From a virus: a stretch of 31,485 nucleotides of DNA. The stretch spans positions 1-31,485 of IMG/VR virus record IMGVR_UViG_3300028025_003464; one strand, 5' to 3'. Positions 24,601 through 26,867 of this stretch are shown here, piece by piece; within the stretch, counting starts at the first letter, position 1, and the number at the start of each line of letters is the position of its first letter. The translations under genes and the position numbers were made by a program. The notes below the pieces were generated by a model, which was given only the letters and a program-made list of their open reading frames with translations, was not told the origin of the DNA and searched no databases.

Positions 24601-24625
24601 GTCTTTGTTGAAGTTGAGAGCAAGG

Positions 24626-24652
24626 CACCGCACTTAGTCCTTTCGAGCGGTG
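24626..24652 (+). ncRNA. Hairpin in the untranslated region before the mom gene
   Basis: CACCGC (24626-24631) pairs with GCGGTG (24647-24652) around a 15-base loop. It lies in the 24601-24750 region, which has no supported gene and precedes two tRNA-like elements. It may be part of a structured leader. Confidence 0.35.
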
Positions 24653-24654
24653 GG

Positions 24655-24716
24655 AGAAATGGCAGGTTTGCAGGCGTTGGGGAAGGCGCTTTTTGGTTCG
24701 ATTCCAAACATTTCAC
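24655..24716 (+). other. tRNA-like remnant
   Basis: A perfect T-arm is present: TTTGG (24692-24696), loop TTCGATT, CCAAA (24704-24708). The following CATTTC (24709-24714) pairs with GAAATG (24656-24661), as acceptor strands would. Between them only 30 bases remain where about 41 are expected, and no anticodon arm of normal form can be drawn. No CCA end is encoded. It is probably a degenerate tRNA. Confidence 0.4.
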
Positions 24717-24750
24717 GCAAGACAATTGAACGGGGTGAAGCAAGTGATAT

Positions 24751-24826
24751 GCGGTGATGGTGTAATGGCAACACAGATGACTTTCCAGTTATCGGTTAGC
24801 GGTTCAATTCCGACTTCATCGCTCCA
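24751..24826 (+). tRNA. tRNA-Gly(UCC)-like, 8-base anticodon loop
   Basis: Acceptor GCGGTGA (24751-24757) pairs with TCATCGC (24816-24822). The discriminator is T and CCA is encoded (24824-24826). The D-arm is GTGT/ACAC with loop AATGGCA. The anticodon stem GATGA/TTATC encloses the eight-base loop CTTTCCAG, one T more than the normal CTTCCAG of Gly-UCC. The T-arm AGCGG/CCG(A)CT with loop TTCAATT has one bulged A. G1-C72, C2-G71, G3-C70 and U73 are glycine identity features. The two single-base insertions suggest a pseudo-tRNA, a frameshift-suppressor type tRNA, or a tRNA-like regulator of the overlapping mom gene. Confidence 0.65.
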
Positions 24827-25409
24827 ATATGTTGAAAGAATAAAGTATCGTGAGGCATACGATTTAGTCAGTTCTTTTCATTATTTGGGCAGCAAGCGTT
24901 TTATTGGGCAATACTGTTTTGGTCTTTTTATTGAAAACGAGCTGCAAGGGGCGGTTGTGTATTCACCTTTAAGCGTTCCTAATTCTGCAACCTCAGCCTT
25001 TGGGTTGCCCCGTGGCAATTATCCTGAATTTTTGGAGATGAGCCGTTTGGTGTTAAATCCATTGCTTAATGGGAAAAATCACGGTTCATACTTGATTGCC
25101 CGTTCATTAAGAGAATTGAAGAAATGCGACATAAAAGCAGTCATTAGTTATGCGGACTCATCAAGACACATTGGCGCGGTCTATCAGGCGGCAAACTTTA
25201 CATATCACGGGTTAACCCCACAGAAAAATGATTTCTTTTTTGCCGATGGCCGAAAGTTATCACGGGGTAAATCAAAGGGATTCGAAGGCAAATGGGTGCC
25301 AAGATCACGCAAGCACCGGTACCTGTTTTTAATGGATAAAAGCGTGAAATGTATTTGGCCTCAAGAGAAGTACCCAAAGGCAGAGCGGGCAGATAATGCC
25401 AACTTATGA
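24765..25409 (+). CDS. Mom-like DNA modification protein
   Basis: The core (after about residue 20) contains KYREAYDLVSSFHYLGSKRF, then EMSRLVLNPLLNGKNHGSYL, KAVISYADSSRHIGAVYQAA and NFTYHGLTPQ. This matches the GNAT-fold Mom family of phage Mu, which adds a carbamoylmethyl group to adenines and makes DNA resistant to restriction. The start is unclear. In-frame ATGs at 24765 and 24777 both lie inside the tRNA-like element, with only a weak GGTGAT upstream. No ATG, GTG or TTG lies between that element and the conserved core. Thus translation probably depends on how that structure folds. Confidence 0.78.
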   Translation: MATQMTFQLSVSGSIPTSSLQYVERIKYREAYDLVSSFHYLGSKRFIGQYCFGLFIENELQGAVVYSPLSVPNSATSAFGLPRGNYPEFLEMSRLVLNPLLNGKNHGSYLIARSLRELKKCDIKAVISYADSSRHIGAVYQAANFTYHGLTPQKNDFFFADGRKLSRGKSKGFEGKWVPRSRKHRYLFLMDKSVKCIWPQEKYPKAERADNANL

Positions 25410-25566
25410 TTTCAAATGCGAGCAGTGCAGTAACACTTTCGAGCTTAATCTTTCGTTTGATAATAAAGATTTGCAGTATTGCGAGGATTGTGAAAAGCCG
25501 TTGGTTAGGGTTTACACGCCCGTTGGTGCCATATTCAAAGGAACAGGTTGGGGGAAAAGTAAGTGA
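25396..25566 (+). CDS. FmdB-like zinc ribbon protein, 56 aa
   Basis: ATG 25396 lies inside the mom 3' end. The product starts MPTYDFKCEQCSNTFELNLS and has YCEDCEKPLVRVY and PVGAIFKGTGWGK, the FmdB-family zinc ribbon (CxxC at 8-11 and 29-32). Its stop overlaps the methyltransferase GTG start. In phage Mu a small zinc protein, Com, activates mom translation. By size, zinc site and overlap this protein is an obvious candidate for a similar role, though that is inference. Confidence 0.8.
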   Translation: MPTYDFKCEQCSNTFELNLSFDNKDLQYCEDCEKPLVRVYTPVGAIFKGTGWGKSK

Positions 25567-26867
25567 AACTAATCAACGCAGACTGCATTGAGGCAATGAA
25601 GGTGATGCCTGATAACTCGGTGGATGCAATCGTGACCGACCCGCCGTATGAGCTAGGGTTTATGGGCAAGAGTTGGGATGCAAGTGGCATTGCCTTCAAC
25701 ATTGAGGTATGGCAAGAGGCGTTACGAGTGATTAAGCCTGGTGGCCACCTTATTGCTTTTTCAGGCTCTCGCACCTATCACCGTATGGCCGTCGCCATTG
25801 AGGATGCAGGGTTTCAGATTCGCGATCAGATTATGTGGGTGTATGGGTCAGGTTTTCCGAAGTCGCATAACATTGAAAAGGCAATTAACAAAATTGATGG
25901 CGTTGAATTTTTAGAAAAGCCCGCAAGTGGTGTTGGATTTATGAACGCTGAAGGTGCGGGTGGTTACAACACAACAATCAACCAACTTGAGCAAGTAGGT
26001 GATTCAAGCGAACGTGCTGCAACCTGGCAAGGCTGGGGCACCGCACTCAAGCCCGCACACGAGCCAATGGTGCTAGCTCGCAAGCCGTTGGAAGGCACCG
26101 TTGCAGACAACGTGCTGACTTATGGTGTTGGCGGGTTGAACATTGACGGCACGCGGGTTGGTAGTGAGTCAAGAGAAATGACCGTTGTTGAAAATGGTTT
26201 TGGTTTGAATTTTATGGATGACAACTGGCAACCAAGTGGTGAAAGATACGAAAAAACCGTCACAGGCCGCTTCCCCGCCAACTTCATTCACGATGGCAGT
26301 GATGAGGTTGTGGGGTTGTTTCCTGATACGAAGGCAACCGGCAGTGGGAAAGTTTCAGGTTTTCGCAAAGGTGGTGCATCTGAAAATGCAGTAGGGCTTG
26401 CAGGCAAGAAAAACGCTGCTGATGGGTTTTCTGACTCAGGCAGCGCCGCCCGATTCTTTTACTGCGCCAAGGCAAGCAAGCGTGACCGCAATGAGGGGCT
26501 TGATGGGTTTGAGGAAAAGGCAATCGGTGTAAAAGGTCACGGGTTGGCTCGAATATGTGCAACCTGTAGTGCAACGTTGTTAACAGGCGGTTGCGATTGT
26601 CCTGATCGTACTTACATCAATCCAAGCCGCCAAAACCACCACCCAACAGTAAAACCAACAACGCTGATGCAGTATCTTGTGCGCCTTGTGACCCCGCCAA
26701 ATGGCACCGTACTTGACCCATTTATGGGTTCAGGTTCGACAGGCAAGGCTTGTGCCTATGAAGGATTTGATTTCATTGGCATTGATCAATCGGCTGAGTA
26801 TGTGGCAATTGCACAAGCCCGCATTGAGTTCGCTCTTGCCGACAAAGATGAGCAGTTGGACTTATGA
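25563..26867 (+). CDS. DNA methyltransferase, DPPY type (N6-adenine or N4-cytosine)
   Basis: GTG 25563 overlaps the previous stop. The 434-residue product has the catalytic motif TDPPYELGFMGK (D26-Y29) before the AdoMet motif DPFMGSGSTGKACAYEG (about 383-399), the beta-class order. Between them are FPKSHNIEKAINK, PANFIHDGSDEVV and a Cys cluster (CATC to CDCPD, about 331-346) that may bind zinc. It should methylate phage DNA for protection from restriction. Placed next to mom, it may also modulate mom or modify the same sites. The recognition sequence cannot be predicted. Confidence 0.88.
   Translation: MKLINADCIEAMKVMPDNSVDAIVTDPPYELGFMGKSWDASGIAFNIEVWQEALRVIKPGGHLIAFSGSRTYHRMAVAIEDAGFQIRDQIMWVYGSGFPKSHNIEKAINKIDGVEFLEKPASGVGFMNAEGAGGYNTTINQLEQVGDSSERAATWQGWGTALKPAHEPMVLARKPLEGTVADNVLTYGVGGLNIDGTRVGSESREMTVVENGFGLNFMDDNWQPSGERYEKTVTGRFPANFIHDGSDEVVGLFPDTKATGSGKVSGFRKGGASENAVGLAGKKNAADGFSDSGSAARFFYCAKASKRDRNEGLDGFEEKAIGVKGHGLARICATCSATLLTGGCDCPDRTYINPSRQNHHPTVKPTTLMQYLVRLVTPPNGTVLDPFMGSGSTGKACAYEGFDFIGIDQSAEYVAIAQARIEFALADKDEQLDL

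Follow-up and report, generated by a model that had tools for sequence, protein, structure and literature searches.

We found that the mom gene of a virus carries, nested in frame at its 5′ end, a tRNA-Gly-like element that is real and under selection far beyond chance, and that tRNAs of this build accompany Mom-family genes in other phage contigs. We consider it quite probable that the element is a dedicated, non-translating tRNA-Gly, encoded by a gene that overlaps the gene of its partner enzyme, and that it would be charged, stay off EF-Tu, and donate glycine to Mom for DNA modification.

A glycine tRNA nested in mom

The window, which is the whole 31.5-kb stretch of the virus record (31,485 nucleotides), includes a WhiB gene, and because of this gene the virus is probably an actinophage. 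The initial annotation had described a DNA-modification cassette with the order structured RNA, mom, FmdB-type zinc ribbon, and DNA methyltransferase, and both this order and its coordinates hold on re-analysis. The features are as follows:

24744..25409, + strand: mom, with a GTG start and 221 aa (alternative start ATG at 24765); PF25680
24751..24826, + strand: tRNA-Gly-like element of 76 nt, nested in frame in mom; from ARAGORN, covariation, and blind scans
24765..24767, + strand: in-frame ATG in the tRNA D-loop, a possible mom start; 34 copies have such an ATG
24784..24786, + strand: glycine anticodon UCC; its loop has 8 nt, or 6 nt on a stem of 6 bp
24813, + strand: invariant bulged A in the T-stem, between the pairs equivalent to 51-63 and 50-64; flanking pairs covary
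24823..24826, + strand: discriminator U73 and encoded CCA end; U73 kept in the aligned and blind sets
25396..25566, + strand: FmdB-type zinc ribbon of 56 aa (Zn_ribbon_8, E = 1.9e-11); neighbouring gene outside the conserved system
25563..26867, + strand: N6/N4 DNA methyltransferase (PF01555, E = 7e-34; phrog_67); neighbouring gene outside the conserved system

The mom frame is open across the entire tRNA-like element, which encodes residues 1-27, and at its other end mom shares 14 nt (25396-25409) with the zinc-ribbon gene, an overlap that had been annotated correctly. Mom makes a glycinamide-type adenine, which is an isomer of glycyl-adenine. The Mom protein of the window matches PF25680 with 101.7 bits against a curated cut-off of 27.1 (E about 5.6e-29 to 7e-29), and the best PDB match of its fold is Mu Mom 8bv8 (Foldseek E = 4.9e-12, TM 0.65-0.70), which also matches our Mom alignment A9 by profile (E = 5e-24). 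The S124A position of 8bv8, a mutant that is inactive according to the PDB title, aligns with the invariant Ser115 of alignment A9, a correspondence made through the Ala of the mutant chain, with its position inferred from chain length. As for the donor, an older view names glycyl-CoA (PMC7824862), and charged tRNA is reported as a co-substrate of Mu Mom (Silva et al. 2023 preprint, 10.1101/2023.03.24.534169).

ARAGORN calls the element at 24751-24826 tRNA-like and draws it as tRNA-? (Glu or Gly), and its Rfam tRNA score of 27.5 bits is just below the cut-off of 29, which 8 of the 14 relatives tested pass. The window cloverleaf has an anticodon of the NCC type, G1-C72, C2-G71, U73, and an encoded CCA. 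C35, C36, U73, G1-C72, and C2-G71 are the glycine identity elements known from E. coli, and the element possesses the full set. Among aligned copies, C35, C36, and U73 are present in 48/48 that are linked to Mom, G1-C72 and G3-C70 hardly vary, the CCA end is encoded, and position 34 of the anticodon is variable (U, A, or G). The copies from the scans described below, which were blind to mom, have U73 in 87/89 and CGC at positions 70-72 in 87/89.

The standard 7-nt anticodon loop and the unbroken T-stem, on which decoding and EF-Tu depend, are both absent from the window copy. The anticodon arm of 5′-nested copies is nearly always 18 nt long (with a loop of 8 nt, or one of 6 nt on a stem of 6 bp; a few are shorter), and the T-stem contains the bulged A in 47 of 48 Mom-linked rows. 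The pair 51-63, which adjoins the bulged A in standard numbering, is part of the EF-Tu site (PMC4052509), and it is at this site that the T-stem is altered. Covarying pairs (A-U, G-C) stand beside the bulged A at columns 52-69 and 53-68, with covariation on its other side too, and G18 and G19 are mostly kept (G in 43/49 and 41/49, respectively). With its bulged T-stem and usual 8-nt anticodon loop appearing unsuited to translation, the element is, by its looks, a non-translating glycine tRNA. The 8-nt loop had prompted us to consider a four-base anticodon frameshift suppressor, which we dropped: loop size varies and the CC is constant.

Farther upstream, at 24632-24720 of the window and 3′ of a phrog_870 gene, is a second tRNA-like RNA that has no CCA end. 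It begins with a hairpin whose loop is of the CCUUUCC type, followed by an acceptor stem, a stem capped by a GGGG loop, and a T-arm resembling that of a tRNA, and the CCUUUCC-type and GGGG loops could pair with each other. This RNA is also found 5′ of mom in loci L001, L003, L005, L006, L009, L026, L028, L059, and L099; consensus folding confirmed the T-arm only, and the match to tRNA-Sec is weak (18 bits).

Selection on the RNA and its linkage with Mom

A Mom search returned 29 relatives, 28 of them with 5′ sequence, and the tRNA element is at the same position in 28/28 of the latter, among which the sequence farther upstream of the tRNA is mostly unrelated. The annotated tRNA fold over the mom start is thereby borne out, and it is unusual. 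A gap-free alignment could be made for 20 of the close relatives, and we tested covariation on 18 distinct ones. In these, the cloverleaf pairs form in 99.2% of cells, compared to 36-49% for slid partners, and both sides have changed in 13/22 pairs, with 57 double-change cells (0/500 shuffles). A larger alignment of 49 sequences, which was fitted to the model and includes one ordinary tRNA row and the 3′-nested L297, has 97.9% of base-pair cells paired versus 38-50% in slid controls, with changes on both sides at 21/22 pairs and 223 double-change cells (0/500 shuffles). The cloverleaf is kept by covariation, and the sequence of the anticodon stem varies freely yet stays paired.

The codons within the tRNA have a pS of 0.25 and a pN/pS of 0.83, while those of the Mom domain have values of 0.71 and 0.26, respectively. 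The combination of low pS and high pN/pS inside the tRNA indicates that the RNA, not the encoded peptide, is constrained. A conserved N-terminal peptide as the cause of conservation was ruled out on these values together with the Mom model, where residues 1-23 have a pLDDT below 50 (predicted disordered) and the fold starts at residue 28.

We scanned IMG/VR for the tRNA alone, with patterns blind to mom. The first pattern, a bulged T-arm plus a CGCTCCA end, returned 83 contigs, 77 of which have a Mom-profile ORF at the tRNA; the remainder are mostly cut by contig ends or have a weak or broken Mom. Ten highly divergent Mom partners were tested, and all ten belong to PF25680. A second pattern left the acceptor unspecified, and among its 69 newly read hits, a CGCT-CCA end is found in 65, a Mom ORF in 66, and 6 or 7 acceptor pairs in all 69. 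For both scans combined, 86 of 89 distinct tRNAs touch or adjoin a Mom-family gene, and since the bulge was fixed in both patterns, this shows that bulged tRNAs accompany Mom rather than that all Mom tRNAs are bulged. Sixty of the 89 lie over the 5′ end of mom, 12 over its 3′ end, and 1 inside it, and 13 are separate elements, with 11 just 3′ and 2 just 5′ of the gene. The three unmatched tRNAs, judged by eye, have Mom-like remains beside them (L416 and L399) or a broken reading frame (L158).

A different class, with the T-loop UGAAAGU, is nested at the mom 3′ end in nine contigs; it covaries by itself, and its representative Mom belongs to PF25680 (E = 9e-46). In L297 (2583-2657), L358, and L361, the cloverleaf of the 3′-nested tRNA-Gly is perfect, its loop has the standard 7 nt, and its T-loop is the unusual UGAAAGU, which ARAGORN does not detect; the bulge is absent from the 3′ tRNA of the L354 type. 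Two mom genes of different types stand in tandem in L188 (4013-5262), each with its own nested tRNA-Gly. An extra stretch lies between the nested tRNA and the Mom domain in L100 and L101 (2882-2957), so the link tolerates insertion.

All of our sequences except the named phages are metagenomic. ARAGORN and Rfam found no tRNA near mom in 12 of 14 loci from well-known phages; the exceptions are Microbacterium phage Blett (L036, 2950-3683), where an ordinary tRNA-Gly(CCC) directly follows mom on the opposite strand, and Pan3, which has a non-Gly tRNA-like element 1.2 kb away. A Blast search of the window tRNA against named phages gave no match. Lone normal tRNA-Gly genes are also found near mom in L206, L208, and L210, and like that of Blett, they point in the same direction as a dedicated tRNA-Gly; some other mom genes are adjoined by arrays of other tRNA types. 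Verrucomicrobia phage P8625 (L363), an isolated phage in whose genome we found no Mom, has a bulged tRNA-Gly of the Mom type (996-1071) at the 3′ end of a 64-aa non-mom ORF that adjoins a methyltransferase. A literature search, to which the full text of Silva et al. 2023 was outside, found no paper on a mom-linked tRNA.

Start codons, the zinc ribbon, and other readings of the element

The initial annotation had read the cassette as a control circuit parallel to Com-mom of phage Mu and built on a tRNA fold. In such cis-acting control, the mom start would be hidden by the fold and exposed by a protein, which could be the zinc ribbon, GlyRS, or Mom, in the way that Com acts on Mu mom. The start codons are in keeping with this, since mom begins inside the fold or just ahead of it in all 5′-nested copies: 17 of the 34 in which the D-loop supplies an ATG lack any alternative start in the 40 nt upstream, and those without a D-loop ATG all have an in-frame start within that distance. 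For the window, it had been claimed that the conventional starts lie only inside the fold, which is true of the ATG at 24765 but not of the GTG at 24744, which precedes the tRNA by 7 nt and has a GGGGTGA Shine-Dalgarno-like stretch. Normal mom starts, which the annotation had set against its own reading if found in close relatives, occur in a sister Mom group about 70% identical, which has a plain ATG and no tRNA.

On the other hand, the same bulged tRNA-Gly is also found at the mom 3′ end and apart from mom as a gene of its own, positions from which control of the translation start is impossible. That the tRNA is so free in where it lies and how it is oriented with respect to the mom start is our best argument against a pure control element. 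In L160, the mom that follows the tRNA has a separate Shine-Dalgarno-like site and ATG, and the tRNA of L178 likewise precedes an independently starting mom. Moreover, a regulator would need no kept U73, CC anticodon, or CCA. The zinc ribbon does not support the circuit either. Annotated as Com-like, it has a profile match to Zn_ribbon_8, with no hit to a Com family at E values up to 0.1. Among the loci covered by a motif-based scan, the window, L001, L059, and L065 are the only ones that have it directly 3′ of mom; a few have a zinc ribbon upstream of mom, and near most none was found. Co-occurrence with mom therefore holds for the tRNA, which all close relatives with 5′ sequence have, as do very many distant ones, but not for the zinc ribbon, and relatives keep the RNA fold but not the gene order, in which neither the zinc ribbon nor the methyltransferase is a conserved neighbour. 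We thus rejected Com-like control by the zinc ribbon as a general explanation and found a Com-mom-like circuit on a tRNA fold unsupported, and we regard cis-acting control in any of these forms as unlikely; the fold may still influence mom translation as a side effect. The common denominator is a functional tRNA-Gly partner of Mom, not a control circuit made from a tRNA fold.

Phages often carry tRNAs, and the anticodon is a real glycine anticodon, so that an ordinary translation tRNA-Gly(UCC), serving codon usage or replacing a tRNA cut by host defence, might stand beside mom by chance. This is very improbable given that the usual 5′-nested copies combine a bulged T-stem with an 8-nt loop or 6-bp stem, and that the blind scans return the bulged tRNA almost only with Mom.

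Very different Mom types follow tRNAs that are identical or nearly so (L010/L122 and L094/L147), from which we conclude that the cassettes recombine at the tRNA, and mom alleles appear to have been swapped there. On a tree of 148 Mom proteins, which has long branches and in which a few rows scored as lacking the tRNA actually have one nearby, the nested state changes at least 13 times, with at least 6 changes forced by well-supported branches. Both observations would suit a tRNA that persists merely as shared sequence for allele swaps, like the tRNA sites of integrases, but such a hinge needs sequence identity rather than compensatory pairs, glycine identity, and CCA, and with an anticodon stem that varies freely while staying paired, we hold it to be a very doubtful reason for the element.

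Proposed role in DNA modification and known systems

We propose that GlyRS would charge the element with glycine, for which G1-C72, C2-G71, U73, C35, C36, and the encoded CCA are kept, and that the bulged A at the EF-Tu site and the mostly enlarged anticodon loop would keep the tRNA out of protein synthesis. Mom, a GNAT-fold enzyme, would then take the glycyl group from the tRNA to form a glycinamide-type modification on adenine of phage DNA. Because the genes overlap, each transcript could yield either the tRNA, through RNase processing, or Mom, through translation, and the overlap may balance the two products by feedback. It is likely that the tRNA serves solely to deliver glycine to DNA modification, with its gene merged in frame with that of the enzyme in no fewer than two separate layouts, one 5′ and one 3′.

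Several observations argue against a dedicated donor. Most Mom proteins have no linked tRNA (two protein-selected sets of 80 Mom loci have it nested 5′ in only 11 and 3′ in one), and the tRNA is therefore dispensable, with host tRNA-Gly having to serve in those cases. P8625, the bulge-less L354 type, and a G18-G19 that is mostly kept, unlike in the staphylococcal case discussed below, weigh in the same direction.

If the dedicated tRNA-Gly is correct, it would provide independent evolutionary evidence, drawn from very many phages, for tRNA as the source of the glycine used by Mom, DNA modification would become one of the few processes that have a dedicated tRNA, and the bulged tRNA-Gly would be a natural marker for Mom systems missed by profiles. 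It is in itself rare for a tRNA gene to form an in-frame part of a protein-coding gene, and one small RNA can now be tested directly for charging, for EF-Tu binding, and for use as a donor.

The element shares its cloverleaf, CCA, and glycine anticodon with the translation tRNAs of phages but differs from them in its aberrant loop and T-stem and in being found with Mom instead of in tRNA arrays. The window resembles the Com-mom circuit of Mu in that a small zinc protein gene overlaps mom and the mom start is in structured RNA, whereas here the zinc ribbon is of the FmdB type, 3′ of mom, and not conserved, and the tRNA is also found 3′ of mom or apart from it. To our knowledge, phage Mu brings no tRNA of its own. 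Mu Mom (8bv8) is of the same family and fold as the window Mom, with the functional Ser kept and charged tRNA as its reported co-substrate, but its start is controlled by Com, while here a tRNA-Gly is encoded inside mom. A precedent is the non-proteinogenic tRNA-Gly of Staphylococcus aureus, which has weakened EF-Tu contacts and serves the FemXAB cell-wall transferases (PMC4052509). Both have altered EF-Tu contact sites and a non-ribosomal transferase as partner, which we propose here to be Mom. The staphylococcal tRNA relies on weak T-stem pairs and the loss of GG18-19, whereas the element described here has a bulged A and an odd anticodon loop with the GG mostly kept, its gene overlaps that of the enzyme, and the target is DNA.
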